Translations under genes and position numbers: made by a program | Shown: positions 8,025 to 53,948 of the stretch, in pieces | Numbering within the stretch: the stretch's first letter is position 1 | Layout of the letters: the number at the start of each line of letters is the position of its first letter | Source: Cloeon dipterum | Lineage: Eukaryota > Arthropoda > Insecta > Ephemeroptera > Baetidae | NCBI RefSeq assembly: GCF_949628265.1 | Contig: NC_088788.1 | Span: 1,426,001-1,490,000, forward strand | Direction of reading: 5' to 3' | Length of the DNA stretch: 64,000 nucleotides | Notes under the pieces: model-generated | Told to the model about the DNA's origin: nothing | The model's input: the letters and a program-made list of their open reading frames with translations, nothing else | The model's database searches: none

Positions 8025-11000
8025 ATGAGGATTTTGGTGCATTTATCGATAGTATTAGTGCTGATAACTGTGATGTATCAGGTGAGCCCTGACATGACCC
8101 TGATGTCAGTTTGCAAACAATTGCCAAATTTGTCAAGTTTGGAGTCGTTTTACTGGGTTTTGACCCACCGGAGCTCAAATTTTGTTACGAATATTTTTCA
8201 CAACATAAGAAAATAATGTTTTTGGAAAGTTTTGCATGCCAAATTTTACTATATAGACAATTTTAAACGATTTTATAAGGTTTTGACATATTTAAGTGTG
8301 GTTTAAGAAGCCTAAAGTTGCATTTTTCGTGCTCATTTGATAGCCCCACAATGATCTGAAGCTTAGAAAAGAAAGTCAATCGTCTAAAACTCACAGCCCT
8401 CTATAGATGTCGTGATGTTGTCTGTTAATAAACCAATTTTAAAAATATTCAGTTCGTTCATTGCGGCGGTAGAAATTCTCAACAAAGAAAACGTTTTCTT
8501 TCAAAAGGTCAGGATTTTTTTTTAAAAAAAGTTTTCAATAAATAATCAGGTCAATGTTTAGGAAACCTGAAGCACTCGAGAAGAAATCAAATAATCAAGT
8601 GTTGTGGAGGTTCGAAATGTTCGGCATCTTTTATGCGTAAACCAAAACGACGTACGAGTGATTTCAAAACGAACACCACTCAGTATGAATTAATTGTGAA
8701 TAAACGGCACGAAGCAAACTATTTAATTATTTTTATTTTAGAGAATATTTACAAACAGCTGTAACCAAAATCGACAGCATCGATTATGAAAATAAGGCCA
8801 TCTCTGAGTCTGATTCAACCCCTTCTGAACCAAACCAAAATCCCATTGACACAGAAACATCTTCCTCTGATCAAGGCATCGCGTCCTCTGACACCACCAT
8901 CACAACAGCTAAACCAATAAATGTAGGCACAAATCTATTAGTAGAGATCTTTCATTCTTAAATAATAATTGTTTTTAGGATGCTTGCGAACAGTCTCGAT
9001 GCGCAACCTTCACGTTCATCGCAAACCAGGTTTCAATTAATCCTTCTTAAGAATTAAAATAAATGAGATCAACTTCCTTATTTTTATTAACAAATTATAA
9101 ATAATTGTTTAATTGAAATAGCACTCCACAATAGTACACGCTATATATCGACACAATTAACACACTGGCATTAAATTTATTCAGGGCGAATCATCAGTGA
9201 TCAGCGCAAGCACGAGTAAGAGAAAATTTATGCCATTGAAGAGTAGCCTAAATTTTTGCTTTTTAAATTTAGGCAAGATAATTGTTAAAAACGGAATGAC
9301 GTTTCTGTTTTCGTCAGCAGCAGCGACTCAAGTTGACGCGGCAAAAAACTGCTTCTCGCGCAATTTGAATTTAATTTCTGTGCAGGACGCCTTGAAAATG
9401 AATCTTGTTCAAAAATTGCTTCAGGGTACGTGTTTTTTTCATTTCATTTTTATTTTATTTTTATAACGATTGAAAGATTTTGGCGCTGATTCTGCCGTCT
9501 GGACGATTGGCTCCAACGAAGGCAACATGTCTTGCCAAAATTACGATTTGAGTTTCGCCTGGTGCAACCCGAAAAGAGAAATTATCCTTCCCGCGATCAT
9601 GCAGGAAATGAAGAGTTTGGAAATCGTTCAAAAAGGACTCACAACGTCCATGCTTAACGGGGCTGCCGTCTTGAAAACGTCAGATTCTAATTCACTGTTT
9701 CCTTTTTTGTGCGAGGTAAAGACACTCGATTAATTTTTTAAATTAATTTGTAAAATTAACACATTTAAATTTTAAATAAGCCAAAAGATGATTTTCAAGA
9801 CTCTTGCCTCGCTCTTAAGTGCAACAAAGACGTATGCTTCGTATTAATTCTGAAGTGTATCCATTAATTTATTTTTGAATTTATAGAGCACATTATTTGA
9901 CGCAAACGGGAATGTTAAGGGTAAATCATGAATCCTAGAAAAACCTAATTTTAACTCGGAAATAATGAAAAAAATAATATTCAAATCGCGAATTTATTTA
10001 AGAATGGCTACTCCTATAAATAGGCAATTAACAATTAAAACGGGCTAAACCGAAAAACATTTGGCAGCTATTGTTAAATTAATGCACAATCCTCTTTGAG
10101 CTAATTTATTCCCTTAATTTATTTATATTCAGATGGACAAAAGTATGGGAAATGGACACGCACCTGCGACAAATTGTACCTTTTCTCTGGCAAGCTTGTT
10201 AGTGTTAAATATCTGATAATTTTTGCAAAAACAATGATAAATTCCTTTTAATTCGCCTCAAAGGGCACTTGGCAGCAGAATTGGGACCTATGCTGCAGAT
10301 TAGGAATGCGCCCGATTTGGTTTAGCTCTGCATCCGACTTTGAATGTTTAAGCAACTCGACTAAAGCGAACTGGACGCTAAACTGGAATTATTGGACGGC
10401 GGGACGCGCGATGGGCACCTGGGGAAGGTGGGCCTGGTGCCCAGGAGCCGTGATCCTGCCCGACTCGCTTTCCTGGGCTCCGGGGCAACCGGACAATAAT
10501 CAGACCAACGAGAATTGCCTGCATTTGCAAGTGACGAAAAATTCGAGCGGAATACTTTTGTCGGACCGGAATTGCAGCCACAAATACGTCATCGCTTGCC
10601 AGGTGACATGAACGTTTTCTGTGTGTGAATTTGTTTGGAATTAGGATGTTTTAAGGGCGACGCGATGATGGCGTCCGACTGCAACAAGCCAAACTGTCCA
10701 ATGGAGTGTTTTAAAAATGCAAGATTTTTCTTGTCTTTTAGGCTCATTTTTTAAAAATATTTTTAAAACGTCATAGGAATCGATTTTCACAAACGGAACA
10801 TTAAATGGTTTGTGATTTGAGCCTAAATTTACTGAAAATTGTTTGAGCTTCTATTTAAGATCTGTTTGTTCACGGCCAGTGGAATGCCGGTTGTGGAAAG
10901 GATTTTCTGTTTTCGGCAGCAGCGGTGAGTTTTAATTTAAATATATATATTTTCTCTTTTAAAAACTATAACGATTAGTTGGATTGGTTGGGCGCGTGGA

Positions 11001-13077
11001 ATTATTGCTGCTCTATTGGAATGAAACTGGCCTCGATTGAGGCTCTAGAGGAATTGAGTTGTCTCACGAACATGGTTGCGAAATATCCCAAAGCAGGTAG
11101 AATAATGAGATATTTCCAATTAAAATGAATTTGACACTTTGATAAACTCTTTTATCAGTCTACCCTGATCAATGTGGAAAGGATTTCTGGACATCTGGCA
11201 CAAACCGCGGTTGTCCAGGCGCTCACTTCTGGTGTTCTGACGACGAAAAATTAAACAAGGAGGAAATAGCCAACTGGAAAAACGGGCAAATGCCCTCGGA
11301 GAGTGCTGATCAGTGCATTTTTATTAATTTGTCAAATTCGACTTTGAATGAGACTTATTTGGGCACTGATTCTTGTACCAAGCAAAAACAGTTTCTCTGT
11401 GAAGTGATATTTTACAATTTTTTTTTATTCCACATTTTAATGTTTTTCGTTTCTATGTCTCTCAGGCCTTGCAACCGGGCAATAAATCGGTGCAAATCGC
11501 GCGCTCTTGCTCGGAAATTTGGAATGTGACTGAAAATGAAGTGAATGATATAATTATGAATCCAAGCGGCGACGTCGTCAACCAAAGACGCAATCTCAAA
11601 GTGCGGCTACGCAAATTAATTTGAGTTATTTTTAAAATCCTGTCTTTTTTGCTTCGCAGTGTTATCTAAGGTGCTGCGGCAAAAAAGGACACGTTGTAAA
11701 TATATTTCTTGAGTTCCCTTTTTTAAAATCAAATTAAATCTGATTATGGAAAAGATAAAAACCGGGTCGCTAGTGACGGATGAAATTTTGCGCAACTTGG
11801 AAGACTTGACGGCCGACGACCCGCAAGCCATGCAGGATGGCTTTCAAAATTTTGATTCCTGCACTTCCATTCGTAAGCTTATTACATGTGCAGAACACAA
11901 TTTCAAATCATTATTTTTTTGCAGAGTCCACCGACGAGTGCCACCTGATGGCCCAGATGTTCCAGTGTGGAAAGAAAAATGATCCAGACCTTACTTTAGA
12001 ACTCGTAACTGCCATCAAAGGAGACGCCACTGTGACTTTTAGAATTCTATTCATACAGAATTTTATCTTTTACTTTGTATTGATCAGGTTTCAGTAACTG
12101 CTGCAGGGGGAATTAAAACCGGCTATAGAGTATGTCCTGTGTATCCAGCAGCAAGTTGTGTACCAAATGTAATCTTGCTAATTTTAGACTAATTTACTGT
12201 AAGATTAACTAATGTTGATCTTGTAGCAAACATATATCGATGAACTTAAAAACACGGGATCATGTAATCAATTTACTTTTCTTTAACCAGACTCATTATA
12301 ATTTTAAATTTTAATATTGAGATAATGGACAATCAAAGTATTTATCATAACTAAATATATTTTAATTGTAAATTATGTTAAAAATTGGATTCCCCGTCTT
12401 TTTAATAATCTCAACTGGTCCATATCCATCTTTTCTTTTCATCAGAATAATATGTATAAAAATATTCATCGGGATTGTATTAAAAAAATATGTTTCGCGT
12501 TCACGGCAAAATTTAAATGAAAGATCTAATTTTTATTTCAGCATTGGGGGGAGGTGTCATGACATCATCGACTGGCAAAAAATACTTTATGAAATATGTC
12601 TTTTATGAAGGAATTGTAAGTGATTCAAAATTCAAACAGTAAATAAACGCATTAAAATAATGTTATTTTTCTAATTTTAGAACGCCGCTCAAGCAGAAGC
12701 AATCTACTGCTGTGCTCTTGGCAGCCACCTTGTCACTTTCGAAAGCTTAGACGATTTCAACGCTTTTATGCAAAGCTGGCAAGGTGAAAAATTCTCCTGA
12801 CATTTTGTTGATCAATTGGGAGCTGGAACGAATTAATATTATAGATGGTACACAACACTCTGCTATCCTTGGACCGACCTTCGACAACGGCGACGGCACC
12901 GACAGCTGGTGCTTGAACTTTAAAAAGATGCCTGTAGGAATGATCAAAGATGTCAACAAATTTTATCGCAACCAACTGTGGAACTCGACTATATTCTTCG
13001 GGCAAGCCTTAGACTTATACTCAGTTGCAAACGGAGGTGGGGCTCACCGAGTTATATGTGGCCCACTTCCCTACTAA
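8025..13077 (+). CDS. LOL1: secreted CTLD x3 - OBP - CTLD fusion protein (intact)
   Basis: Best-resolved copy: 26 exons with every phase matching, 940 aa. Exons: 8025-8081, 8453-8507, 8562-8682, 8742-8922, 8979-9029, 9185-9215, 9273-9425, 9477-9715, 9781-9831, 9887-9920, 10133-10197, 10264-10602, 10656-10718, 10777-10807, 10860-10924, 10979-11096, 11159-11403, 11466-11600, 11660-11695, 11755-11872, 11925-12031, 12088-12168, 12227-12263, 12542-12615, 12681-12783, 12845-13077. Residues: 1-19 signal peptide; 20-77 basic with CCGGSKC; 78-138 short Ser/Thr-rich; 166-296 CTLD1; 347-459 CTLD2 with GQPDN; 513-633 CTLD3; 634-765 OBP; 830-940 CTLD4 ending CGPLPY. Three-exon leaders lie before each CTLD. 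The mucin-like part is the shortest of the CTLD1-bearing genes. Role is inferred: secreted sugar- and ligand-binding protein. Confidence 0.88.
11466..12031 (+). other. OBP (PBP/GOBP-like) domain of LOL1
   Basis: Four exons. Cysteine pattern C-X30-C-X3-C-X42-C-X8-C-X8-C, the classic six-cysteine OBP spacing. Landmarks: SCSEIWNVTENEV at helix 1, CYLRCCGKKGHV with the CX3C pair plus one extra Cys, NFDSC, and DECHLMAQMFQCGKKNDPD, which resembles the CWK..DP end of free OBPs. It has no signal peptide, ATG or poly(A) site of its own. The cassette starts and ends in phase 0. In other insects OBPs carry small hydrophobic ligands in sensory lymph or body fluids. Confidence 0.85.
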
Positions 13078-13079
13078 TT

Positions 13080-14150: not shown

Positions 14151-14285
14151 AAAATTGTTCGGGAACACAGTACAGTATGACACCAATAGTTCGTCACACA
14201 TATAGCAGGACGTTCAGAGTTTCGCACTTCATACTGAAAACTGCCACTGTTTTAACAGCAGCTCTTTTTCAACATACAAGTCAAA
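14150..14285 (+). promoter_or_regulatory. Class B upstream block of LOL2
   Basis: Contains GTCACACATATAGCAGGA, then a TTTCGCACTTCAT start-like stretch about 25 bp on. The same block lies before LOL3 and LOL7, and it is unlike class A. CATATAG is a possible weak TATA box. Confidence 0.5.
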
Positions 14286-17200
14286 ATGAGGATTTTGGTG
14301 CTTTCAACAATCATATCAGTGCTAATAATTGTGAATTATCAGGTGAGCCTATTGATTAGAACAATTATTTTCTGGGTAAAATGTAAATATACGTTGTGAG
14401 ATGTGGTCATAGTGAATGTACCAAATTTATAAAATTTAGTTCGTACTTTGCGGCGGAAGAAGTCCTCAATTAAGAAAACGTTTAAATCCAAAAGGTCAGG
14501 GTTTGATCTAAAAAAGGGTTTGGTTTTGAAATACAAACTGGTCTCACGTTTAGAAAACCTGAAGCACTCGAGACGACCTTATATAATCAAGTGTTGTGGA
14601 GGTTCAAAATGTTCGGCATCTTTTATGCGTAATCCACTGCGACGTACGAGTGTATTCAAAACGAACACCACTCACCTTGAAACATCCAAAACTCAGTATG
14701 AATACCTTGTGAATGAGAAAAATGAAGCAATCTATTTAATATTATATTGATTTTCAGAGGTCTTTTTCAAACAACTAAAGCCACAGATTTCCGCAGTGCT
14801 TTAGAGCACACAAATTATGAAAATACGACAATCTCTGAAATTGATACAACCGTCTTCAAATCAAACACGGCCTTCTCTAAATCAGATACTTCCCCCTCTG
14901 AACCAAAACAAAATCCCATTGACACAGAAACCTTTTCCTCTACTCAAGGCATCACGTCATCAGAGACTACCGCCACGATTTTAAAAAGTGACACGACTAA
15001 ATTTATTGCACCTTGTACGTAAATTAAATTTACGAACCACGAATATATTTCTGACGTATTCAACAGCTCGGACGAAAGCAGAATCAACCACAGACTCACC
15101 TACAAGCACCTCACCAGCAGCAGAAGCGAAAACAACCCTGACCACTGCTGCGACAACCACAAATTTGGTCAACCCAACTGCAACATATTCCACCACCACC
15201 ACCACAACCACAACAACAGCTAAACTAATAAATGTAGGATCAAATTTATTTGCAGAAAGGCTTTTTTTAAATAAAAAAAAAAACGGTTTTTAGCTCGCTT
15301 GCGAACAGTCTCGGTGCGCAAACTTCACCTTCATCGCAAATCAGGTTTCAAATCTTTAAAAAAATTCAAAGAAGCGTTTAATCGAAATAGCACTTCCATA
15401 ATAAAACGTTATGTATATATCCACAAATTTAACACGTATTTATTCAGGGCGTATCATCAGTGATCAGCGCAAGCACGAGTAAGAGGAAAATTCTACCTTT
15501 GATGGTTTCTAAAATTTTGTACTTTTGAAATCAGGCAAGCTAATTATTAGAAACGGAATGACGTTTCTGTTTTCATCTGCAGCAGCGACTCAAGTTGACG
15601 CGGCAAAGAACTGCTTTTCGCGCAATTTGAATTTAATTTCTGTGCAGGACGTCTTGAAAATGAATCTTGTTCAAAAATTGCTTCAAGGTGTGTATTTTTC
15701 ATTTCATTTTTATTTTATTTTTATAACGATTCAAAGATTTTGGCGCTGCTTCTACCGTCTGGACGAGTGGCTCGAACGAAGGCAACATGTCGTGCCAAAA
15801 TTACGATTTGAGTTTCGCTTGGTGCAACCAAAAAAGAGAAAACGTCATTCCAGCGATCAAGCAAAAAATTAACAGTTTGGAAATTGTTCAAAAAGGACTC
15901 ACGGCGTCCATGCTTAACGGGGCTGCCGTCTTGAAAACGTCAGATTCTAATTCACTGTTTCCTTTTTTGTGCGAGGTAAAGACACTCGATTAATTTTTAA
16001 AATTAATATATTTTTGAAAAACTGATAAATTAGCCAAAAGGTGATTTTCAAGACTCTTGCCTCGCTCTTAAGTGCAACAAAGTCGTATGTTTCGTATTAA
16101 TTCCGACGTGTATCCATTAATTTATTTTGGAATTTATAGAGCACATTCTTTGACGCAAACGGGAATATTAAGGGTAAATTGTGAACCTAGAAAATAACGT
16201 ATTTTATAAAAGAAAAAAAATGAAAAATGTTAAATATAAAATTTATGTTACATTGGCTACTCCTACAAATATAGTAAATTAATAATAACGATCTAAATCG
16301 AATAACTTTTTGCAGCTATTATATAAAAAATTAATGCACAATCCTTTTTTAGCTAATTTATTCCCTTAAATTATATATATTCAGATGGAGAAAAGTATGA
16401 GAAATGGACACGCACCTGCGACATATTGTTCCTTTTTTCTGGCAAGCTTGTTAGTGTAAAATATTTGTTTTTATTGCAAAAATAATAATAAATTCTTTAT
16501 AAATCCTCAAAGGGCACTTGGCAGCAAAATTGGGACTTTTGTTGCAGATTAGGAATGCATCCTATTTGGTTTAGCTCTGCGTCCGATTTCGAGTGTTTGA
16601 GCAACATAACCAAAGCGAACTGGACGCTAAACTATAATTATTGGACGGCGGGACGCGCGATGGGCACCTGGGGAAGGTGGGCCTGGTGTCCAGGGGCCAT
16701 CGACCTGCCCGACTCTCTTTCGTGGGCTCCGGGACAACCGGACAATAATCAGACCAACGAGAATTGCCTTCATTTGCAAGTGACGAAAAATGCGAGCGGA
16801 ATAATTTTGTCAGACCGGAACTGCAGCCTCAAGTACGTCATGGCTTGCCAGGTGGGACGACATTTTTCTGTCCACGTTAATGTATTTTGCTAACATAAAA
16901 ATTCTGGATGGTTTCAAGGGTGACGCGTTGATGGCGTCCAATTGCAACAAGCCAAACTGTCCGAAGGAGTGTAGTAGAAATGCAAGATTTTCCTTGTCTA
17001 AATTAGGGCTCATATTTTTAAAAATATTTTTAAAACGTCATAGGAATCGATTTTCAAAAATGGCGTATTAAATGGTTAGTGATTTGAGCCAAATTTGAGT
17101 AAAAATAAATTAGAGCTTCGTCTTTTAGATCTATTTATTCACGGCCAGTGGAATGCCGGTTGTGGCAAAGATTATCTGTTTTCATCTCCTACTGTGAATT

Positions 17201-19336
17201 TTTATTTTAAATTTTATATTTTCTGTTTTATAAATTATAACGATTAGTTGGATTGGTTGGGCGCGTGGAATTATTGCTGCTCCATTGGAATGAAACTGGC
17301 CTCGATTGAGGCTCTTGAGGAATTGAGTTGTCTCACGAATATGGTTGCGAAATATCCCAGAGCAGGTAGAATTAGAATAATGATAATTCCAACCATTGAA
17401 ACGAGTATTTGAATTTCAAACTTTTATGAACTCTTTTATCAGTCTACCCTGATCAATGTGGAAGGGATTTCTGGACATCTGGCACAAATAGAGGTTGTCC
17501 AGGAGCTCACGTTTGGTGTTCTGACGACGAAAAATTAAACAAGGAGGAAATAGCAAACTGGAAAAACGGGAAAATGCCCTCGGAGAGTGCTGATCAGTGC
17601 ATTTTCATTAATTTGTCAAATTCAACTTTGAGTGAGACCTATTTAGGTGCTGACTCTTGTAACAAGCAAAAACAGTTTCTCTGTGAAGTGATATTTTACA
17701 ATTTTTTTTTATTCCACATTTTAATGTTTGTCGTTTCTGTGTCTTCAGGCCTTGCAACCGGGAAATAAATCGGTTCAAATCGCGCGCTCTTGCTCGGAAA
17801 TTTGGAATGTGACAGAAAATGAAGTGAATGATATTATCATGAATCCAAGCGGCGACGTCGTCAACCAAACACGCAATCTCAAAGTGCGGCTACGCAAATT
17901 TTTTAAATCGTGTCTATATTTTTGCTTCGCAGTGTTATCTAAGGTGCTGCGGGAAAAAGGGGAACGTGGTAAATATATTTCTTGAGTTTACTTTTTACAA
18001 ATCAAATTATATCTGATTATGGAAAAGATAAAAAACGGGTCACTGGTGACGGATGAAATTTTGCGCAACTTGGAGGACTTGACGGCCGATGACCCGCAAG
18101 CAATGCAGAATAGCTTTGAAAAATTTGATTCCTGCACTTCCATTCGTAAGCATTATTTGTGCAAACACAATTGCAAATTATTATTTTTTGCAGAGTCCAC
18201 TGACGAATGCAACACGATGGCCCAGATGTTCCAATGTGGAAAGAAAAATGATCCAGACCTGACTTTCGGTCTCGTAACTGCCATCAAAGGAGACGCCACT
18301 GTGATTTTTAGATTTCTATATTGAGACAGAATTATATATTTTAATTTGTATTCGCCAGGTTTCAGTAACTGCTACAGGGGGAATTAAAACCGGCAATAGA
18401 GTATGTCCTCTTTATCTAGCAGCAAGTTGTGTACCAAACGTAATCTTACTAAATTTAGACTAATTTACGGTAAGATTTACTAATATTTTTCTTGTAGCAA
18501 GCAAATATTGATGAACTAAAAACCACGGGAAAATGTAATCAATTTACTTTTCTTTCATCAGACGTATAATTTTAAGTTTTGATATTGCGACAATGGAAAG
18601 TCAAAGTTTTTATCATAATTAAATATATTTTAATTTTAAATTATATTAAAAGGTTCCCCGTCTTTGTAATAATCTCTCAATTGGTACATATACATACATT
18701 TTCTTTACATCAGAATATTTTATATATATTAAAGGATTTATCGTGATTGTATTAAAAAATATATGTTTCCCGCTCAGGGCAAAATTGAAATGTAACGTCA
18801 AACTGTTATTTCAGCTTTGGGGGGAGGAGTCTTGTTACCATCGAATGGCAAAAAATACTTTATGAAATATATCTTAGGAATTGTAAGTAATTCGGAAATT
18901 AAATAAATGCATCAAAATAACATTATTTTTCTAAATTTAGATGGACTTTCAAGCAGAAGCAGACTACTGCTGCAAACTTGGCAGCCACCTTGCAATTTTC
19001 GAAAGCTTAGCGGATTTCAACGCTTTTATGCCTAGCTGGCAAGGTAAAAAATTCTCTTGACATATTGTTGATCAATTCGGAGCTGGAACGAATATCACAG
19101 ATGCTAACGGCGACTTGACTTTCATTGGAGCGACTTTCGACAACGGCGATGGCACCGACAGCTGGTGCTTGAACTTTAAGAAGCTGCCAGCAGGATTGAT
19201 CACAGATATCAACACATTTTATCGCAACCAGCAGTGGAACTCGACTTTTCTATTTTTGAATCATAACGGTGCATTAAGAATAGTTCCGACAGGAATTGGG
19301 GCTCACCGAGTTTTATGTGGCCCACTTCCCTACTAA
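14286..19336 (+). CDS. LOL2: CTLD x3 - OBP - CTLD fusion protein (intact)
   Basis: Same exon plan as LOL1, with an extra Ser/Thr-rich exon (15067-15233), so the product is roughly 1,000 aa or slightly more. Signal peptide MRILVLSTIISVLIIVNYQ. The N-terminal segment carries the KCCGGSKC motif. Domains: CTLD1 15536-15975, CTLD2 16513-16851, CTLD3 17248-17687, OBP 17749-18300, CTLD4 18941-19336 (intron-containing spans). CTLD2 keeps GQPDN and ENCLHL. The OBP has the standard six cysteines and the subtype CNTMAQMFQC; its second exon ends GKKGNV rather than GKKGHV. No stop or frameshift was found in the exons read. Poly(A) signal AATAAA at 19618-19623. Confidence 0.85.
17749..18300 (+). other. OBP domain of LOL2
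   Basis: Four-exon cassette as in LOL1, phase 0 at both ends. Six OBP cysteines plus the extra Cys after CX3C. The subtype fits the DPD group (CGKKNDPD) shared with LOL1, LOL4 and LOL6. Confidence 0.82.
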
Positions 19337-22940: not shown

Positions 22941-22959
22941 GGCGTGGAACCTTGACCCT

Positions 22960-23640
22960 TGTCCTTGTCGTCGCGGCCACAGGTATGCCATTTCATCTCA
23001 GGTTTTTGACCAGGCTTGACCACAATATTTTAGCAGATTTCTATTCCTTTCGTCGAGATCTGTCAGACAACCTGAACAAGTCTGAAAATTGCATGCACCT
23101 CAACGTCACGAGCGTCACCAACATTAACGTTTCCACGTTTTCACGTGCCAGTAACTTGCTTTCAATTATGTATATATTTTTTAAAAATATAATGATGCAG
23201 TGACCGCCAACACCAGCTCCGCCATGTTCGTGTCCTCCATCCTGTCCGAACGTCACTTACTTGCGAAATCATTTTGTTTCACGAATGGTCCATATTTTTG
23301 CAGTCCCTGCGCTGTTCACCAATGCGACTAAAAAGGGAAAAGTCGGCCAGTGATTATTATTAAATTTTTAGTGACTATCTTATAAATAAGGATTTATCTT
23401 AATTTTATTGTGAATAAATTTCGGCATCCAAATTACCACTCACAGTTAAATTTGAAACTTTTATTCCGGATTTAATAGGGGAAAGTGTCATGTACAGATA
23501 ATGGACGCCACTGGATATTCATTGGACCGACTTTCGACAGCTGGTGCTTGAACTTCAAGAAGCTGCCAGCAGGATTGATCACAGACATCGATTTATTTTA
23601 TCGAACAAAACACAAATAACTTTTGAGTACAAAACCCTGG
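22960..23640 (+). pseudogene. Decayed lectin fragments, including a CTLD4-like exon
   Basis: Near 22950 a hydrophobic signal-like stretch reads LTLVLVVAATG. At 23070-23110 NKSENCMHLNVTSVT is a CTLD remnant, and at 23205-23330 a Cys/Pro-rich block recurs. At 23488-23620 there is a shrunken copy of the last LOL exon (FIGPTF, then SWCLNFKKLPAGLITDID) that lacks the NGDGTD loop and the CGP.PY end. No usable gene remains. Confidence 0.6.
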
Positions 23641-23849
23641 TCGGTGCACGGCTCAGCTCATACAATAAAGGAAAAAATGATGGAAGGAAAGCTTAAATTT
23701 TATGTATTTCTACCGCATCGTAAATCGAGCTTGAAATTTAAGTAGCAAATCTACTGACATATTTTTCATAATTTACATATAGATAGACACCCGCTCAATA
23801 TTTTCGAAATGCTAATACGCATCACGAAAAGAAGTGAAAAATTGGTCGT

Positions 23850-33100: not shown

Positions 33101-34010
33101 TTCATACTGAATTAAATCTTTTAACTTTGTATTGATCAGGTTTTAGAAACTGCCACAGGGGGAATTAAAACCAGCGATAGATTGTGTCCTTTGCCTACAG
33201 CAGCAAGTTGTGTACCAAATGTAATCTTAATAAATTTAAGACTAATTTACAAAAAATGATAAACTAATCTCGTTCTTGCAGCAAGCAAATATTGATGAAC
33301 TTAAAAACACGGGATCATGTAATGATTGATAAATTTTCTTTTCGCCGATAAGCCTTAATTCAAAGTTAAATATTGAGATAGTAGAGAAAATTGAATTATT
33401 TTACCATTTTGGATAATTATTCCCCAACAATATTAATAATTTCAATAGAAATACAAAAAAATCACTCAGGTCGTATTTTTATTTCAGCATTAGGAGGAAA
33501 TATGACGACAGCCTCGAATGGCAAAAAATACTTTACAACACTTAACACAGCAGGAATTGTAAGTAATTCTATCAGTTAATAAATGTATCTAAACATTATT
33601 TCTATTTAAATTCAGAGCGACATTCAAGCAGAAGACTCCTGCTGCAAACTTGGCAGCCACCTTGCCATCTTCGAAAGCCCAGCGGATTTAGACGCTTTTT
33701 TGCAAAGCTGGCAACGTAAAAAAGATCGATACATTATTTCGTTTGTCAATTGGGAGCTGGAACAAATATTGCAGAAAATGGTGGCTACAAATTTTTCATT
33801 GGATCAACTTTCGACAACGGTGATGGCACCGACAGTTGGTGCTTGAACTTCAAGAAGCTGCCGACAGGATTGATCACAGACATCAACTCATTTTATCGCT
33901 ACGATCAGTTGACCACGACTAAAATTTACTTGAAGAAAACCCCCGGATTAGAATTAGGTGCAAAAAAAGACGTGGTTAAAGGATTAATATGTGGCCCACT
34001 TCCCTACTAG
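30114..34010 (+). CDS. LOL4: CTLD x2 - OBP - CTLD fusion protein (CTLD1 absent)
   Basis: Signal peptide MRILVLLSIVSALIIVKFQ, a shortened basic segment, KCCGGSKC, then one Ser/Thr-rich exon ending TTLTTAAK at a donor GTAGAT. The next exon is the leader of CTLD2 (RKDDFQDSCLPLKCNKD), so CTLD1 and its leader are missing. The frame is kept because both ends of the lost block are phase 0. Domains: CTLD2 31298-31636, CTLD3 32031-32453, OBP 32516-33081, CTLD4 33616-34010. CTLD4 differs most from its siblings near the end (YDQLTTTKIYLKK and KGLICGPLPY). No stop or frameshift was seen. Product roughly 780-800 aa. No clean AATAAA was seen close downstream. Confidence 0.83.
32516..33081 (+). other. OBP domain of LOL4
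   Basis: Standard cassette. Helix 1 differs from the others (SCREIWGVKESEVNSII) and the subtype end reads CHTMAQMFQCGKKNDPD. Six cysteines are kept. Confidence 0.82.
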
Positions 34011-38600: not shown

Positions 38601-40724
38601 GTGGAAAGGATTATCTCTTTTCGGCTGCAACGGTGAATTTTAAAATTTATATTTACTGTTTTAAAAATGATAACGATTAGTTGGATTGGTTGGGTGCGTG
38701 GAATTATTGTTGCTCCGTTGGAATGAAATTGGCATCGATTGAGGCTCTTGAGGAATTGAGTTGTCTCACGAATATGGTTGCGAAATATCCCAGAGCGGGT
38801 AGAATAATGATATTTCCAATTAAAATGAATTTGACACATTTATAAACTCTTTTATCAGTCTACCCTGATCAATGTGGACGCGATTTCTGGACATCTGGCA
38901 CCAACTGCGGTTGTCCAGGCTCTCACTTCTGGTGTTCCGAGAATGAAAAATTGAACAAGGAAGAAATAGCCAACTGGAAAAACGGGAAAATGCCCTCGGA
39001 GAGTGCTGATCAGTGCATTTTTATTAATTTGTCAAATACGACTTTAAAAGAGACTTATTTGGGCGCTGACTCTTGTACCAAGCAAAAACCATTTCTTTGC
39101 GAAGTGATATTTCAATTCTATTTTTTTTTCCACTCCAATGTGTTTTTTGTGTCTTTCAGGTCTTGCAACCAGGCAATAAATCAATGCAAATCGAACGCAA
39201 TTGCAAGGAAATTTGGGGCGTGACAGACAGTGAAGTGATTGATATTATCATGAATCCGAGCGGCGACGTCGTCAACCAAAGACGCAATCTCAAAGTGCGG
39301 CTAAAAAAATTAATTTGTATAATTTTAATTTTCAAATTCGTAAATTTTTCTTCACAGTGTTATCTAAGGTGCTGCGGGAAAAAGGGACACGTTGTAAATA
39401 TATTTCTCGAGTTCAATTTTTTAAAATCAAATTAAATCTGATTATGGAAAAGATAAAAAGTGGATCACTGGTGACGGATCAAATTTTGCGCAACTTAGAG
39501 GATTTGACGGCCGACGACCCGCAAGCCATGCAGAATGGTTTTGGAAACTTCGATTCCTGCGCTTCCTTTCGTAAGCTTTTCTATGCCATTAACATAATTG
39601 AAGCGCAAAATCTTTCACAGAGTCCACTGACGAATGCAACACGACGGCCCAGGTGTTCGGGTGTGGCAAGAAAAATGCACCAGACCTGACAATCGGACTC
39701 GTCACTGCCAACAAAGGAGACGCCACTGTGACCTTTTTAAAACTATCTTCATACTTAACTATATTTTTTAATTTGTACTCGCCAGGTTTCAGTAACTGCT
39801 ACAGGGGGAATTAAAACCACCGGGAGAGTGTGTCCTCTGTATCCAAGTTGTGTTCCAAATGTAATCTTGCAAACTTTAAACAAATTTACAGTAAGATTGA
39901 CTAATGTTGTTCTTGCAGCAAGCAAATATTGATGAACTTAAAAACACGGGATCATGTAATCAATTTACTTCTGTTTCGTCAGACGCATAATTTTAAGTTT
40001 AATATTGAGATGATGGAAAATCAAAGTGTTTATCATAATTAAATAGAATTTTAATTGTAAATTACATTAAAAGGCCGATTCTCCGTCAGTTTTGATCCAT
40101 TATACATATTTTCTTTTCGTCAGAATATCATATATATAAAAGGATTTATCGTGATTGTATTAAAATGTATTCAAATGAAAGATCTAATTTTCATTTCAGC
40201 ATTGGGGGGATATGTCATGACATCATCGACTGGCAAAAAATACTTTATGAAATATGTCGCTTCTGAAGGAACTGTCAGTAATTCAAATAGTAAATAAATG
40301 CATAAAAATAACATTATCTAAATTTAGACCGAAGCTCAAGCGGAAGCAAACTACTGCTGCAAACTTGGCAGCCACCTTGCAATTTTCGAAAGCTTAGCGG
40401 ATTTCATCGCTTTTAGGCAACTCTGGCAAGGTAAAAATATCCTGTTGACATTTTGTTTATCAATTGGGAGCCTGAACAAATATTACAGATGGTTCAGGCC
40501 ACTTGACTTACATTGGACCGACCTTCGACAACGGCGATGGCACCGACAGCTGGTGCTTGAACTTTAAGAGGTTACCAGCAGGAATGATCACAGATATCGA
40601 CAAATATTATCGCAACCAGCCGTGGAACTCGACTAAAATTGTGTTGTTTCAAAGCTCTGGATTAGAAATATTTCCAAAAGAAAGCGGGGCTCACCGAGTT
40701 TTATGTGGCCCAATTCCCTACTAA
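35685..40724 (+). CDS. LOL5: CTLD x3 - OBP - CTLD fusion protein (intact)
   Basis: Signal peptide MRILVLLSIALVLIIVRHQ. The Ser/Thr-rich region has two exons, the second with a long Thr tract before TTAKPIN, so it is likely heavily O-glycosylated. Domains: CTLD1 37008-37450, CTLD2 37974-38312, CTLD3 38681-39103, OBP 39160-39727, CTLD4 40329-40724. In CTLD1 the Trp of the WTIG motif seen in its siblings is Leu (VLTIGSNEG) and a Cys replaces Ser in LTACMLNG. CTLD2 keeps GQPDN and ENCLHL. No stop or frameshift was found. Product of about 1,000 aa or slightly more. Confidence 0.85.
39160..39727 (+). other. OBP domain of LOL5
   Basis: Standard four-exon cassette, second subtype (CNTTAQVFGCGKKNAPD). 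Helix 1 reads NCKEIWGVTDSEVIDII, as in LOL3. Confidence 0.82.
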
Positions 40725-43850: not shown

Positions 43851-46800
43851 ATGAGGATCTTGGTGCTTTTATCGATTGTATCAGTGCTAATAATTGTGAA
43901 GTATCAGGTGAGCCTTTTAATTATGTTCAAATTAATTTATGGATAAAAAGTTATCATGATATTGTCTGTTCATAAACCAATTTTAAAAACATTTAGTTCG
44001 TTCTTTGCGGCAGTAAAAATTTTCGTTTTCTTTCAAAAGGTCAGGATTCTTTTGAAAAGGTTTTCAATATATAATCAGGTCAATGTTTAGAAAACCTGAA
44101 GCACTCATCGAAACGAATTTATATAATCAAGTGTTGTGGAGGTTCGAAATGTTCGGCATCTTTTATGCGCAAACCAACGCGACGTTCGAGTGTTTTTAAA
44201 ACGAACACCAATAAGCAGCACCTTAAAACATCCACAACTCAGTATGAATTCTTTGTGAATAAACATCACGAAGAAGCAAACTATTTAACTATTTTTATTT
44301 TAGAGGACATTTTCAAACAGCTGTAACCAAAAATGAAAACATGGATTATGAAAATAAGGCTGATACAACCCCCTCTGAACCAAACCAAAATTATCCCATT
44401 GAAACAGAAACATCTTCCTCTGATCAAGGCATCACGTCCTCTGAGACTACCAATTCGGAATTGAACACCGCCACGATTTTAAAAAGTGACACGACTAAAA
44501 TTATTGCGGAAAATTCACGTTGTACGTCGACTAAATTTACAAACCACGAATATTTCTGATGTATTCAACAGCTGAGAAGAAAGCAGAATCTACCACAGAA
44601 TATCCTACAAGGACCTCACCAGCAGCAGAAGCGAAAACAATCCTGACCACAGCTGCCACAACGACAAATTCGGGCACCACAACTGCAACATATTCCACCA
44701 CCACAACCCAAACCACCACCAGAACCACAACCATCACTACAACGACAACTACCACAAAAGCGACAACCACATCCACCACCACCTCGACATCAACAACTAC
44801 GACAGCTAAACCAATAAATGTAGGCTCAAATTTATTAGCAGAGATGATATTTAAAATTAAAAATTGGTTTTTAGCTGGCTTGTGAACTGTCTCGGTGCGC
44901 AAACTTCACTTTCGTCAAAAACCAGCAGGTTTTTATTTTAATCCTCTTAATATAATTTTACAAACATGAGATCAACTGTTCAATTTTTATTTTTAATTAG
45001 AAATTTCAAACATGAGTACAATTAATTATTGCCATGCGAAAACGGTAATTAACACGTTTCGTACTATACATTATTCAGAGCGAATCATCAGTGATCAGCG
45101 GAAGCACGAGTAAGAGGAAAATTATGCCATTTACGATAATTAAAATTTTCCCCTTTGAATTCAGGCAAGCTAATTGTTAGAAACGGAATGACGTTTCTCT
45201 TCTCGTCAGCAGCAGTGAGCCAAATTGAAGCGGCCAAGAACTGCTTTTCGCGCAGTTTGAATTTAATTTCTGTGCAAGACGCGCTAAAAATGAGTCTTAT
45301 TCAAAAATTGCTTCAAGGTGCGAGATTTAATTTCATTATTTTTAATTTTGTCTCGACGAGATTTAAAGATGTTGGCACTGCTTCTGCCGTCTGGACAATT
45401 GGCTCGAACGAAGGTAACATGTCGTGCCAAAATTACGATTTGAGTTTCGCCTGGTGCAACCCGAAAAGAGAAATCGTTCTTCCAGCGATCATGCAGAACA
45501 TGAACAGTTTGGAAATTATTCAAAAAGGACTGACGACGTCAATGCTTAACGGTGCTGCCGTCTTGAAAACGTCAGATTCTAATTCATTATTTCCTTTTTT
45601 GTGTGAGGTAAAGACACTTGATTAATTGGTTAAATTAATATATATTTAAAAACTGATAAATTAGCCAAAAGGTGATTTTCAAGACTCTTGCCTTCCCCTT
45701 AAGTGCAACAAAGACGTATGTTTCGTATTAATTTTGACACATTCATTTATTTCTACATTCAAATGTATAGAGCACATTGTTCGACGCAAATGGGAATGTT
45801 AAGGGTAAAACGTGAAACCTGCAAAACTCGAAAAAAATTAAACATCCAAAGTTGTAACTTATTTTACAATGGCTTCTCCAATTGACAATTACCAAAAAGG
45901 ATTTAATTATAGATTATCATTTGAGAGATAATAAAAATAAATAAATAATAATCTTAATTTTGTGCATAACAAAATTGTTTTAAATTCAGACGGAGAAAAG
46001 TATGGGAAGTGGACGCGTACCTGTGACAAATTGTACCTCTTCTCTAACAAGCTTGTTAGTATTAAATTTTTAACATGTTTAATTAAAAATAAATAATTAA
46101 TTAATTCCTTATAAAGGGCACTTGGCAGCAGAGTTGGGACCTTTGCTGCAGTTTAGGCATGAAACCAATATCGTTTAACTCGGCGTCCGATTTCGAGTGT
46201 TTGAGCAACTCGACGAAAGCAAACTGGACGCTAAACTATAATTATTGGACGGCGGGACGCGCAATGGGCACCTGGGGTAAGTGGGCCTGGTGCCCAGGAG
46301 CCGTCAACCTGCCCGACTCGCTTTCCTGGGCTCCGGGGCAACCGGACAATAATCAGAAAAACGAGAATTGCCTTCATTTGCAAGTGATGAAAAATTCGAG
46401 CGGTACACTTTTATCAGACCAGAACTGCAGCCACAAGTACGTCATGGCTTGCCAGGTGGGACGACATTTTTCTGTCCACGTTAATGTATTGACAGCCAAC
46501 ATACAAATTCTGCATGGTTTTCAGGGCGACGCGTTGATGGCGTCCGACTGCAACAAGCCAAACTGTCCAATGGAGTGTTTTAAAAATGCAAGATTTTTCT
46601 TGTCCTTATTAGGACTAATTTTTTAATAATATATATATTTCAAACGTCATAGGAATTGATTTTCAAAAATGGCATATTAAATGGTTAGTGATTTTAGCCT
46701 AAATTTAGTGAAAATTGTCTGATATTCTCTTACAGATTTGTTTGTTCACGGCCAGTGGAATGCCGGTTGTGGCAAGGATTATCTGTTTTCGAAAACAACT

Positions 46801-48831
46801 GTAATTTTTATTTTGGAATTAAAATTTTCTATTTAAAATTTAATGATGTTAAGCTGGATTGGTTGGGCGCGTGGAATTATTGCTGTTCCATTGGAATGAA
46901 ATTGGCATCGATTGAAGCTCTTGAGGAATTGAGTTGTCTTACGAATATGGTTGCGAAATATCCCAGAGCGGGTAAAATAATGATATTTCTAACCATAGTA
47001 ACGAGTATTTGAATTTTAAACTTTTAAAAACTTTTATCAGTCTACCCTGATCAATGTGGAAGGGATTTCTGGACATCTGGCACCAACCGCGGTTGTCCAG
47101 GAGTTCACTTCTGGTGTTCTGACGACGAAAAATTGAACAAGGAAGAAATAGCCAACTGGAAAAACGGGAAAATGCCCTCGGAGAGTGCTGATCAGTGCAT
47201 TTTTATTAATTTGTCAAATTCGACTTTGAGTGAGACCTATTTGGGCACTGATTCTTGTACCAAGCAAAAACAGTTTCTTTGTGAAGTGATATTTTACCAT
47301 TTTTTTTATTCCACATTTTAATGCTTGTCGTTTTTGTGTCTCTCAGGCATTGCAACCGGGCAATAAATCGGTGCAAATCGCGCGCTCTTGCTCAGAAATT
47401 TGGAATGTGACTGAAAATGAAGTGAATGATATAATTATGAATCCAAGCGGCGACGTCCTCAACCAAACACGCAATCTCAAAGTGCGGCTACGCAAATTAA
47501 TTGGAGTTATTTTTAAAATCCTGTCTTTTTTTGCTTCGCAGTGTTATATAAGGTGCTGCGGGAAAAAAGGACACGTTGTAAATATATTTCTTGAGTTCCC
47601 TTTTTAAAAATCAAATTTAATCTGAATATGGAAAAGATAAAAACCGGGTCACTGGTGACGGATGAAATTTTGCGCAACTTGGAGGACTTGACGGCCGACG
47701 ACCTGCAAGCCATGCAGGATGGCTTTGAAAACTTTGATTCCTGCACTTCCATTCGTTAGATTTTTACATGTGCAAATCACAATTTCAATTCATTATTTTT
47801 TGCAGAGTCCACTGACGAGTGTCACCTGATGGCCCAGATGTTCCAGTGTGGAAAGAAAAATGATCCAGACCTGACTTTAGGTCTCGTCACTGCCATCAAA
47901 GGAGACGCCACTGTGACTTTGAGAACTATCTGCATACACAATTATATCTTTTATCTTTTTACTCGCCAGGTTTCAGTAACTGCTACAGGGGGAATAAAAA
48001 CCAGCGGGAGATTATGTCCTCTGTATCCAAGTTGTGTTCCAAACGTAATCTTACTAAATTTAGACTAATTTACAATAAGATTAACTAATCTTGTTCTTGC
48101 AGCAAGCAAATATTGATGAACTTAAAAACACTGGATCATGTAAAGATTGATAAATTTTCTTTTCAGCGATAAGCCTTAATTCGAAGTTAAATATTGAGAT
48201 TGCAGAGAAAATTGAAATATTTTATCATTTTGGATAATTATTCTTCATTTATATTAATAATCTCAATAGAAATACAAAAAAATCACTCAGGTCGTATTTT
48301 TATTTCAGCATTAGGAGGAAATATGACGACAGCCTCGAATGGCAAAAAATACTTTATGATATATGTCTCAGGAATGGTGTGTAATTCAAACAGTAAGTAA
48401 AAATGCATCAAAATAATATTATTTTTCTAAATTTAGACCGACGCTCAAGCAGAAGCAGACTACTGCTGCAAACTTGGCAGCCACCTTGCCATCTTTGAAA
48501 GCTTAGCGGATTTCGACGCCTTAATGCAAAGCTGGCAAGGTAAAAACTCTCTTTAAATTTTGTTGATCAATTGGGAGCTGGAACGAATATCACAGATAAT
48601 TCAGGCCAATTGGGTTACATTGGGCCGACCTTCGACAACGGCGATGGCACCGACAGCTGGTGCTTGAACTTCAAGAAGCTGCCAGCAGGAATGATCACAG
48701 ACATCAACAAATATTATCGCAACCAGCAGTTCGCCACAACTCATATATTCGTGAGGCAAGGCGCTCGATTTGAAATATATATAAAAGGAACAATGGCTCA
48801 CCGAGTTTTGTGTGGCCCAATTCCCTACTAA
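43851..48831 (+). CDS. LOL6: CTLD x3 - OBP - CTLD fusion protein (intact)
   Basis: Signal peptide MRILVLLSIVSVLIIVKYQ. The second exon is shortened and the usual CGG is CGS. The mucin-like region is the longest of the seven, with two exons and a long Thr tract. Domains: CTLD1 45165-45607, CTLD2 46117-46455, CTLD3 46854-47285, OBP 47347-47912, CTLD4 48437-48831. The short intron inside CTLD1 is itself open in frame, so retention would add about 17 residues. CTLD2 keeps GQPDN, but its last disulfide region reads LSDQNC. No stop or frameshift was found. Poly(A) signal at 49068-49073. Confidence 0.85.
47347..47912 (+). other. OBP domain of LOL6
   Basis: Standard cassette, first subtype (CHLMAQMFQCGKKNDPD), nearly the same as LOL1 in both coding sequence and exon 18 flanks. 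Confidence 0.82.
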
Positions 48832-49720: not shown

Positions 49721-49955
49721 GTGAAAAATGGCCAGTCCAATTAATGCGTGATGCAACCCCAAATAATAATATTCTTTCACTGCGACTGGAACTTTCCAAC
49801 GTCCATATTATGGCTCGAAAATTATGGAGGGAAAACACTTTGTGACATCAACAGTTTGTCACACATATAGCAGGAAGTTCCGAGTTTCACAATTCATGCT
49901 GAAAACTTCTGCCTCTGTCTGAACAAACAGCTCTTTTACAACGTTGAAAGTCAAA
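49720..49955 (+). promoter_or_regulatory. Class B upstream block of LOL7
   Basis: Nearly the same as the block before LOL3: AACACTTTGTGACATCAAC, CACACATATAGCAGGAAG, TTTCACAATTCATGCTG and CAAACAGCTCTTTTACAACG. Confidence 0.55.
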
Positions 49956-52900
49956 ATGAGGGTTTTGGTGCTTTCGACGATCATATCAGTGCTAATAATT
50001 GTGAATTATCAGGTGAACGTTTTGATGGATATGTGATTATGTTGGGATCTGGTCTAAATTAGAAAAACTTTAAAATTTAGTTGGTTCTTTGCGGCGGTAG
50101 AAGTCCTCAATTACGGAAACGTTTACTTTCAAAAGGTAAAAAAGTATAATAAATAATCTGGTCAAATGTTTAGAAAACCTGAAGCATTCGAGACGACCTT
50201 TTATAATCAAGTGTTGTGGAGGTTCGAAATGTTCGTCATCTTTTAAGCATAAACCACCGCTACGTTCGAGCGATTTGAAAACGAATAACACTACTATCCT
50301 TAAAAAAGCCAGCACTCCGTATGAATAATCTGAATAATTTGTGAATGAGAAGCAAGAAGCAAACTATTTAATATTATTTTCATTTTAGAGAGCATTTTCA
50401 AACAGCTGAAACTAAAAATGAGAGCAGGGAATACGAAAATAGGGCTGATCCAACCCCCTCTGAACCAAACCAAAATTATCCCATTGCAACAGAAACAATT
50501 TCCTCTGATCAAGGCATTGCGTCCTCTGAGACAGAATATCCTAAAAGCACCTCTCCAGCAGCAGAAGCGAAAACTACCCTGACCACAGCTGCGAAAGTAG
50601 ATAGACATTTGACTAATATTTAAAATTAATATATAAAAAAATTAAATTAGCGTAAAGAAGATTTTCAAGACTCTTGCCTTCCTCTTAAGTGCAACAAAGA
50701 CGTATGTGTCGTATTTATTTTGACGCATCCAATATTTATATTCGAATTTATAGAGCACAGTGTTTGATGCAAATGGAAAAATCAAAGGTAAAATGTGAAA
50801 CATGTGGAGAATGGATAAAAATCTATGTTTATTACGTGGAGAATTTATTTTTTAATTGAGTCTACAATAGCTACTCCCAGAGGCAATTATCAATAAAATT
50901 AATAAAAACAGAATAACGTTTGGTGCTATTGTAAAATCAATTAAAATTCCGATTCTATTTTTTTTCCAAAAAAAGCATTCTCTATATATTCAGATGGAGA
51001 AAAGTACGGAAAGTGGACGCGCACCTGCGACAAATCGTACCTCTTCTCTAACAAGCTTGTTAGTATTAAATTTTTAATATGTTTCATTAAAAATAAAATA
51101 ATTAATTAATTAATTCCTTATAAAGGGAACTTGGCAGCAGAATTGGGACTTTTGTTGCAGTTTAGGAATGCACCCGATATGGTTTAACTCGGCATCCGAC
51201 TTTGAATGTTTAAGCAACTCGACCAAAGCGAACTGGACGCAAAACTGGAATTATTGGACGGCGGGACACGCAATGGGCACCTGGGGTCAGTGGGCTTGGT
51301 GTCCAGGGGCCGTCAACCTTCCCGACTCGCTTTCCTGGGCTCCGGGGCAACCGGACAACGCCCAGCAGCCTGACGAGAATTGCCTTCATTTGCAAGTGAC
51401 GAAAAATTCGAGCGGTGTAGTTTTGTCGGACCGGAATTGCAGCCATAAGTACATCATCGCTTGCCAGGTGGGATGATTTTTTTCTGTGTGTTGAGAGCAA
51501 ACATAAAAATTCTGGATGGTTTTAAGGGCGACGCAATGATGGCGTCCATCTGCAACAAGCCAAACTGTCCGATTGAGTGCAGTAGAAATGCAAGATCTGT
51601 TTTTCCTTTAAAATCTTTTTTTTTAACAATATTTAAAACATAATAGGAATCATTTTTCACAAAGGGAATAATTAAAGGTTAGTGATTTGAGCCTAAATTT
51701 AGTGAAAATTTTTCGATCTTGTCTTTCAGATCTGTTTGTCCACGGCCAGTGGAACGCCGGTTGTGGAAAGGATTATCTCTTTTCAGCTGCAACTGTGAAT
51801 TTTAAGTTTTATAGATTTTTTAATTTTTTTTAAATATCATAACGATTAGTTGGATTGGTTGGGCGCGTGGAATTATTGTTGCTCAGTTGGAATGAAACTG
51901 GCCTCGATTGAGGCTATTGAGGAATTGAGTTGTCTCACGAACATGGTTGCGAAATATCCCAAAGCGGGTAAAATATGATATTTCCAATTAAAATGAATTT
52001 GACACTTTTATAAACTCTCAACAGCTTACCCTGATCAATGTGGACGCGATTTCTGGACATCTGGCACCAACCGCGGTTGTCCTGGCTCTCACTTCTGGTG
52101 TTCTGACGACGAAAAATTGAACAAGGAGGAAATAGCCAACTGGAAAAACGGGATATTGCCCTCGGAGAGTGCTGATCAGTGCATTTTCATCAATTTGTCA
52201 AATTCAACTTTGAGTGAGACCTATTTGGGCGCTGCCTCTTGTACCGAGCAAAAACCGTTTCTTTGCGAGGTGATATTATTATGTATTCCTTTTACCATCA
52301 TGTAGTTTATTGTTTTTGTGTCTTTCAGGCCTTGCAACCGGGCAAAAAATCGATGCAAATCGAACGCACTTGCAAAGAAATTTGGAATGTGACAGACAAA
52401 GAAGTGAATGATATAATCATGAATCCAAGCGGCGACGTCGTCAACCAAAGACGCAATCTCAAAGTGATACTCCGCAAATGAATTGGAGTAATATATTTAA
52501 AATCGTGTCTATATTTTTGCTTCGCAGTGTTATTTAAGGTGCTGCGGGAAAAAAGGACACGTTGTAAATTTAATATATATTTCTTTAGTTCGCTTTTTAA
52601 AAATCGAATTAAATCTGATTATGGAAAAGATAAAAAGTGGGTCACTGGTGACGGATCAAATTTTGCGCAACTTGGAGGACTTGACGGCCGACGACCCGCA
52701 AGCAATGCAGAATGGCTTTCAAAACTTTGATTCCTGCGCTTCCTTGCGTAATCTTTTCTATGCCATTAACATAATTGAAGTTAAAAATCTTTTGCAGAGT
52801 CCACTGACGAATGCAACACGACGGCCCAGGTGTTCGGGTGTGGAAAGAAAAATGCACCAGACCTGACAATCGGAATCGTCACTGCCAACAAAGGAGACGC

Positions 52901-53948
52901 CACTGTGACCTTTTTAGAACTCAATTCAAACAGAATTTTATCTTTTAATTTGTGTTCGCTAGGTTTCAGTTACTGCTACAGGGGGAATTAAAACCAGCGG
53001 GAGATTATGTTCTGAGTATCCAGCAGCAAGTTGTGTACCAAATGTAATCTTCCTAAATTTAGACTAATTTACAGTAAAATTAACTAATGTTGTTCTTGCA
53101 GCAAGCAAATATCGATGAACTTAAAAACACGGGAAAATGTAATCAATTTAATTTCCTTTCTTGAGACGCATTATTATTTCAATTTTAAATATTGAGATAA
53201 AATGAACAATCAAAGTATTTATCACAATTTAATATATTTTAACTGTAAATTATATTAAAAGGTGGATACCCCATCATTTTAATAATCTCAATTATTGGTC
53301 CATATACATACAGTTACTTTTCATCAGAATTTTATATATTTATAATAATCATTTATCGTGATTTTAATAAAAAAATGTGTCCCGCTCACGGCAAAATTTA
53401 AATGAAAGGTCTAACATTTATTTCAGCATCGTTGGGAGTTCTCATGACATCATCGACTGGTAAAAAATATTTCAAGACACATTTACATGGACTTGTAAGA
53501 ATTTAGAACAGTAAATAAATGCATCAAAATAACATTATTTTTCTAAATTTAGACCGACGCTCAAGCAGAAGCACAATGCTGTGCTTTTGGCACTCACCTT
53601 GCCATTTTCGAAAGCTTAGAAGATTTCAAAGCTTTTGTGCAAAGCTGGCAAGGTAAAAAATTCTCCTGACATTTTGTTAATCAATTGGGAACTGGAACGA
53701 ATATTATCACAGATAATTCACGCTACTGGGTTTACATTGGGCCGACTTTCGACAACGGCGATGGCACCGACAGCTGGTGCTTGAACTTTAAGAGACTGCC
53801 AACAGGATTGATCACAGACATCAACACTTTTTATCGCAACCAGCAGTGGAGCCTTACTCATATATTCGTGAGGCAAGGCGCTGAATTAGAATTAGTCTCA
53901 AAAGAAGTTGGGGCTCACCATGTTTTATGTGGCCCACTTCCCTTCTAA
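49956..53948 (+). CDS. LOL7: CTLD x2 - OBP - CTLD fusion protein (CTLD1 absent)
   Basis: Signal peptide MRVLVLSTIISVLIIVNYQ and class B promoter as in LOL3, but from exon 4 on it resembles LOL4: one Ser/Thr exon ending TTLTTAAK at a GTAGAT donor, then RKEDFQDSCLPLKCNKD. CTLD1 and its leader are missing at the same junction as in LOL4. Domains: CTLD2 51126-51467 (one residue longer, GQPDNAQQPDENC), CTLD3 51850-52269, OBP 52329-52904, CTLD4 53553-53948, ending CGPLPF rather than PY. No stop or frameshift was found. Product roughly 790 aa. Poly(A) signal at 54162-54167. Confidence 0.83.
52329..52904 (+). other. OBP domain of LOL7
   Basis: Standard cassette, second subtype (CNTTAQVFGCGKKNAPD), although the gene shares the CTLD1 loss with LOL4, which carries the first subtype. 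Confidence 0.82.

Follow-up and report, generated by a model that had tools for sequence, protein, structure and literature searches.

A window of 64,000 nucleotides (nt) from the mayfly Cloeon dipterum (contig NC_088788.1; the positions given here are those of the window) contains, between 8025 and 53948 and all on the + strand, seven tandem copies of a gene whose predicted products combine several C-type lectin-like domains (CTLDs) with a domain of the odorant-binding protein (OBP) family. The order along the copies, in a single frame, is a signal-peptide-like start, a Ser/Thr-rich stalk, CTLD1 to CTLD3, a block of four exons which resembles OBPs, and CTLD4.

Copy 1 (LOL1, 8025-13077) has 25 exons and encodes 889 amino acids. 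Copies 2 (14286-19336), 5 (35685-40724) and 6 (43851-48831) have 26 exons each and encode 969, 985 and 983 amino acids, respectively. Copies 4 (30114-34010) and 7 (49956-53948), with 21 exons and 739 amino acids each, lack exons 4-7, which carry CTLD1, and their stalk is joined in frame to exon 8. The frame is open from ATG to stop in these six copies, while copy 3 (24075-28772, 25 exons) has a single in-frame TAA (26268-26270) within CTLD2, which may be an assembly or sequencing error; the rest of its frame is intact. In the same copy, exons 24 and 25 (28425-28772) are not separated by an intron and the frame is preserved. An earlier interpretation of this DNA, made from the letters alone (the sequence-only reading), had proposed seven tandem genes, the first of which would assemble into one frame of 26 exons and 940 amino acids. 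The seven copies and the single frame stand, with the reservation that one copy is interrupted and two lack a domain, but the exon number and the length of copy 1 had to be revised.

The exons of copy 1 were placed by hand, with a check of splice signals and phase. The coordinates of four of them (11159-11403, 11466-11600, 11925-12031 and 12088-12168) were known beforehand from the sequence-only reading, and all four are present in the rebuilt model. Copies 2-7 were modelled by projection of copy 1 through DNA alignment, followed by correction by hand. The models comprise 170 exons and 163 introns in total: all 163 acceptors are AG, and the donors are 155 GT and 8 GC. Seven of the eight GC donors belong to the same intron, after exon 12, once per copy (GC-AG, 10719-10776 in copy 1).

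The OBP block and the lectin-like domains

The OBP block (exons 17-20) lies at 11466-12031 in copy 1, where it encodes 131 amino acids (residues 584-714), and at 17749-18300, 27299-27862, 32515-33081, 39160-39727, 47347-47912 and 52329-52904 in copies 2 to 7. In all seven copies it stands between CTLD3 and CTLD4, in frame and flanked by AG acceptors and GT donors, as had been claimed. Each of the seven blocks matches the Pfam family PBP_GOBP (PF01395), with a best E-value of 1.9e-9. When the six intact full chains are searched, PF01395 scores above its curated cut-off in all of them (29.0-37.4 bits, for a cut-off of 22), in one stretch per chain, and the alignment covers profile positions 10-13 to 113 of 113. 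Odorant-binding protein 1d (4pt1) leads the sequence matches among solved structures, with E-values of 3.1e-6 for the single sequence of copy 1 and 5.9e-6 for the profile of the block. In the single-sequence search of the PDB, 11 of the 17 matches listed are OBPs (including AGAP005208-PA, which we take to be one); in the profile search OBPs account for 7 of the 34 matches listed and take the best five places. The four-exon block is therefore assigned to the OBP family on the basis of sequence matches far beyond chance. Since it extends from just after the CTLD3 exon to past the sixth cysteine, it has the appearance of a complete mature OBP devoid of signal peptide, and from its sequence homology to solved OBPs it may have the six-helix OBP fold.

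The six canonical cysteines, at block positions 15, 46, 50, 92, 101 and 110, are invariant in the seven copies. With the modelled exon-18 donor the spacing is C-X30-C-X3-C-X41-C-X8-C-X8-C, in which the X3 between the second and third cysteines and the X8 between the fifth and sixth are as in OBPs. The previously reported spacing differs by X42 in place of X41, and an alternative donor 3 bases downstream, which gives X42 and 132 amino acids, has a better splice score in all seven copies. A seventh cysteine directly follows the third. The cysteine pattern alone is not compelling: shuffling also yields it, 3 times in 5000 for the block and 30 times in 2000 for the chain. Chance as the explanation of the likeness to OBPs is ruled out by the PF01395 family matches.

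Within the block, intron 18-19 (11693-11754 in copy 1) measures 62 nt in six of the seven copies, has a weak acceptor and shows a mean divergence of 8.8%, compared to 12-33% in 15 other introns. Because the end of this conserved 62-nt intron reads like the MEK stretch of OBPs, we asked whether exon 19 might begin inside it, but dropped the idea when inspection by eye revealed no donor in the required phase.

The four lectin-like domains of copy 1 are encoded by exons 6-7 (CTLD1, 9273-9715), 10-11 (CTLD2, 10133-10602), 14-16 (CTLD3, 10860-11403) and 23-25 (CTLD4, 12542-13077). CTLD3 is the reference domain: in copy 1 it matches Lectin_C (PF00059) with 26.0 bits for a cut-off of 22.6, Lectin_C is above cut-off in four of the six intact chains (copies 1, 2, 4 and 7), and the CTLD3 profile matches mosGCTL-1 in the PDB with an E-value of 1.6e-4. 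The two Pfam families that had been proposed as a check on the sequence-only reading, PF01395 and PF00059, are thus found in six and four of the six intact chains, respectively; no further family was matched in the copy 1 chain at E-values up to 10. The CTLD2 profile, built from six copies, matches E-selectin (4.3e-7) and mosGCTL-1 (9.6e-6) in the PDB, and aligns with CTLD3 in hhalign with an E-value of 1.5e-10. In the same type of comparison, CTLD1 (profile from four of its five copies) aligns with CTLD3 with a probability of 80.9 and an E-value of 1.3e-5, and CTLD4 with a probability of 54.4 and an E-value of 1.3e-4. CTLD4 also matches LY75 weakly (0.038) and PF00059 in two of the seven copies at E-values up to 10 (best 0.0057; none in copy 1).

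Sugar-binding C-type lectins combine an EPN or QPD motif with a calcium-site motif of the ND type, of which ND is the usual form. QPD is present in CTLD2 of all seven copies, with SD where ND is expected, and neither EPN nor QPD was found in CTLD1 (five copies), CTLD3 (seven) or CTLD4 (seven). Because these motifs are confined to CTLD2, each chain likely has at most one classical glycan site, and the claim that the protein "binds glycans at several points" is not supported; CTLD1 and CTLD4 are, besides, weakly recognizable as CTLDs.

Upstream of the CTLDs, exon 1 of copy 1 (8025-8081) encodes the signal-peptide-like hydrophobic start, as judged from the gene model and hydropathy. It is followed by a micro-exon (exon 2, 8573-8598, 26 nt), which was deduced from the phase and from its conservation among the copies, and by exon 3 (8742-8922), which encodes the Ser/Thr-rich stalk; in copies 2, 3, 5 and 6 the stalk is longer and Thr-rich. 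The linker between the OBP block and CTLD4 (exons 21-22, 12088-12263 in copy 1) contains two cysteines. Each chain has 7-16 N-glycosylation sequons and 36-44 cysteines. Since the N-terminus is hydrophobic and there is no second strongly hydrophobic stretch of 19 residues, the proteins of the family are probably secreted. The sequence-only reading is thereby upheld in that an OBP-family domain is predicted in a multi-CTLD chain which, by gene structure, forms one transcript unit and probably leaves the cell.

Continuity of the predicted chain

The gap between CTLD3 and the OBP block (intron 16-17) is 54-62 nt, and that between the OBP block and exon 21 (intron 20-21) is 56-58 nt, in all seven copies; there is therefore no room in either gap for the end of one gene and the start of another. 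In terms of percentile relative to all GT or AG of the window, the splice sites which join exons 16 and 17 are good, the donors being in the 80-95th and the acceptors in the 88-100th percentile. In the gene models the OBP block begins and ends in phase 0, like the modules of CTLD2 (exons 9-11) and CTLD3 (exons 13-16); exon shuffling would require modules of this kind. It had been stated that neither a start codon nor a poly(A) site precedes the OBP block. In five of the seven copies there is indeed no in-frame ATG before exon 17, but copies 4 and 7 have one within intron 16-17, the two being unlike each other. A scan for AATAAA and ATTAAA from exon 16 onward finds neither in intron 16-17 of any copy, but ATTAAA occurs within exon 16 of two copies. 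Past the stop codon, one of these signals is present within 400 nt in six of the seven copies. The gene structure thus argues that the seven genes very probably encode single-chain fusions of lectin and OBP domains.

Several observations count against such a fusion, or against the identity of its parts. Regarding the junctions, the splice scores of exon 19 are poor in all copies (acceptor in the 35-46th percentile, donor in the 7-15th), the donor of exon 17 is middling in six of seven (60th percentile), and the donor of exon 20 and the acceptor of exon 21 are average in several. AATAAA occurs inside exon 17 of six copies, where it codes for Asn-Lys, and retention of intron 16 leads in all seven copies to a stop just past CTLD3 or in the first OBP exon. 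Copy 4 has neither AATAAA nor ATTAAA within 400 nt of its stop codon. In four of the seven copies in-frame ATGs stand ahead of exon 23, which is preceded by an intron of 169-288 bases, and CTLD4 is for this reason joined less securely than the rest. As for the domains, CTLD2 alone gives no match to Lectin_C at E-values up to 1 in the six members searched, no Lectin_C match at an E-value of 0.01 or better is reported in the chains of copies 5 and 6, the Pfam scan of the full chain yields no separate hit for CTLD1 of copy 1, and CTLD1 and CTLD4 in general appear only weakly recognizable as CTLDs. Exon 11 of CTLD2 and a piece of CTLD4 (exons 24-25 of copy 3) are predicted with low structural confidence (pLDDT 42.7 and 47.2). 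Finally, 6 of the 17 matches listed in the single-sequence PDB search of the OBP block are retroviral Gag or nucleocapsid proteins (E 0.047-1.5), which span its CCGKKGH stretch, and 27 of the 34 matches listed in the profile search are not OBPs, most of them being FimH, at E-values of 0.15 or worse. No viral contig was matched in a search with peptide patterns from the OBP block. The OBP domain family is not known outside hexapods, so that the domain by itself points to an insect.

Given the AATAAA of exon 17 and the stops met on read-through, a short isoform without the OBP domain is possible. The genes could then make two products, a lectin which ends in the retained intron 16, with a poly(A) site in exon 17, and a long form with the OBP domain and CTLD4. 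This is unlikely: the read-through of donor 16 into a short tail and a stop is common to all the copies, but the AATAAA is what would be expected if the Asn-Lys residues were kept, copy 7 lacks it, and the splice sites between exons 16 and 17 score well. The proposal that adjacent lectin, OBP and lectin genes have been wrongly joined, which could draw on the in-frame ATGs in intron 16-17 (two copies) and before exon 23 (four copies), is very improbable and was rejected on the evidence of spacing, phase and splicing, since the 54-62 nt that separate CTLD3 from the OBP block are too few for a terminator, a promoter and a signal-peptide exon, and the phases are compatible throughout.

Selection between copies and possible function

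The ratio of nonsynonymous to synonymous substitution rates (dN/dS) was calculated by pooling pairwise comparisons, with codon bootstrap ranges, over five copies for CTLD1 and seven for the other blocks. It amounts to 0.13 (0.08-0.21) for CTLD3, 0.17 (0.10-0.25) for CTLD2, 0.27 (0.17-0.45) for CTLD1 and 0.33 (0.23-0.49) for the OBP block (0.31 without copy 3), which indicates that the latter is maintained as protein. The linker (0.62, 0.25-1.53) and CTLD4 (0.82, 0.59-1.14) have higher values. Within CTLD4, the last 36 columns (12847-13074 in copy 1) reach 1.55 (1.00-2.67), compared to 0.84, 0.45 and 0.58 in the other three stretches. Since CTLD4 was subdivided with the alignment already in view, and shared changes enter a pairwise pool repeatedly, the value of 1.55 is a lead rather than a test; as such, it points to the C-terminal end of CTLD4 as the varying part, which may be diversifying.

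The stop-bearing copy and the two copies without CTLD1 are signs of tandem turnover, as is a further, decayed copy on the + strand (22949-23700). In this remnant, 23494-23700 resembles CTLD4 (E-values down to 4.7e-13) and another piece faintly resembles CTLD2 (best E-value 0.008), and no OBP match was found. Turnover together with a diversifying tip suits a role in defence or in mate recognition. Across 8025-53948, the pairing of the copies varies between the trees of the CTLD2, CTLD3, OBP and CTLD4 blocks, as it would after gene conversion or recombination among the copies.

Taken as a whole, the interpretation that we favour, and consider fairly probable, is that these are tandem secreted fusions of lectin and OBP which capture glycans or amphiphiles in a defence-type manner. 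The chain would be secreted outside the cell, where CTLD2 may bind a galactose-type sugar with calcium, the usual meaning of a QPD motif. The OBP domain would take up a small hydrophobic ligand. CTLD4, which changes fastest in its C-terminal part, may recognize a variable target, and the domains would jointly capture glycan-bearing particles or amphiphiles in the extracellular space, most likely in defence. The defence role of the fusion proteins is itself plausible but tentative. One step further, and speculative enough to be held improbable, the family could represent a new class of animal pattern-recognition protein, which reads a surface sugar with a lectin domain and a bound lipid with an OBP domain, spreads in tandem and carries a fast-changing recognition tip.

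The same fusion might instead serve as a chemosensory carrier, the CTLDs and the mucin-like stalk anchoring the odorant carrier in the glycan-rich surface layer of a sensory organ, for instance gill or antenna. We regard this as somewhat unlikely. The expression of OBPs in the gills of C. dipterum (PMC7250882; this and the other papers cited by PMC number are drawn on through excerpts) and the purifying selection on the OBP block are in its favour, but the fast-changing part is CTLD4 and not the OBP block.

It is also rather doubtful that the OBP block acts as a structural spacer which has kept the fold and lost ligand binding. The additional cysteine directly after the third, the two further cysteines of the linker and a dN/dS which is the highest among CTLD1, CTLD2, CTLD3 and the OBP block would agree with a spacer, but the six canonical cysteines are invariant in all seven copies and the ratio is well below 1.

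A reproductive role, in seminal fluid, egg coat or mating plug, in which the diversification of CTLD4 would reflect recognition of mate or sperm, seems quite improbable. OBPs are found as seminal proteins in Drosophila (PMC10834028) and the dN/dS of 1.55 in the CTLD4 tail would suit it, but tandem copies with turnover suit defence equally.

Outside the tandem array, exons at 1828-3047 resemble ELMO/CED-12, below the Pfam cut-off, and an exon at 55957-56478 has a CS domain (PF04969, 24 bits for a cut-off of 21.3).

Comparison with known systems

OBPs are mainly regarded as carriers in free form, and the number of OBP genes serves as a measure of chemical sensing. C. dipterum has 191 OBP genes; 82 of 167 are expressed in gills and 25 are gill-specific (PMC7250882). 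Another mayfly, Parafronurus youi, has 10 OBPs (PMC13205551). Four OBPs, three of them fragmentary, are reported for the damselfly Calopteryx splendens, in which their detection is called difficult (PMC5381652). No word beginning with lectin occurs in the excerpted main text of an OBP review (PMC8067015), nor in the excerpts of the two mayfly papers (PMC7250882, PMC13205551). Judged by title and start of abstract, none of the matches listed from the open-licence literature, including those for pairings of lectin and OBP, describes an OBP-lectin fusion; the sequence-only reading, too, knew of no described family with an OBP inside a lectin chain. If an OBP is indeed fixed in a lectin chain, this would show the fold in use as a module, and a role outside smell would become testable. 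Counts based on domains, such as the 191 of C. dipterum and the 10 of P. youi (PMC7250882, PMC13205551), may then mix carriers and fusions. If in addition the proteins read both a sugar and a lipid, part of the large mayfly OBP counts could be lectins, not odorant carriers.

The block shares with classic insect OBPs (PF01395; odorant-binding protein 1d, 4pt1) the pattern of six cysteines and a near full-length domain match, and differs from them by the one additional cysteine after the third. Classic OBPs are small, free, secreted proteins, whereas the present block is embedded in chains of 739-985 amino acids and has no conserved start of its own. Double-domain OBPs are known from Drosophila (Obp83cd and Obp83ef), Nasonia and, as atypical OBPs, mosquitoes (PMC2258175, PMC3428353). 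These dimer OBPs likewise result from the joining of domains in frame within a tandem cluster, according to the same excerpts, but their partner is a second OBP domain, while here the partners are lectin-like domains and a stalk; each of the six intact chains has one OBP domain instead of the two which define a dimer OBP.

On the lectin side, insect C-type lectins have been grouped into those with a single carbohydrate-recognition domain (CRD), those with two, and CTL-X, in which a CRD is accompanied by other motifs (PMC8235521). The CTL-X lectins and the mosquito mosGCTL proteins (PDB 9t9z) are CTLD proteins like the present family. The excerpted description of CTL-X (PMC8235521) mentions no OBP partner, whereas the present chains combine three or four CTLDs with an OBP domain. 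Proteins of the mannose-receptor type (LY75) also have several CTLDs in a row; in contrast to the anatomy of these receptors, the mayfly chains show no membrane-like segment in hydropathy profiles and have an OBP domain inserted in the row of CTLDs.

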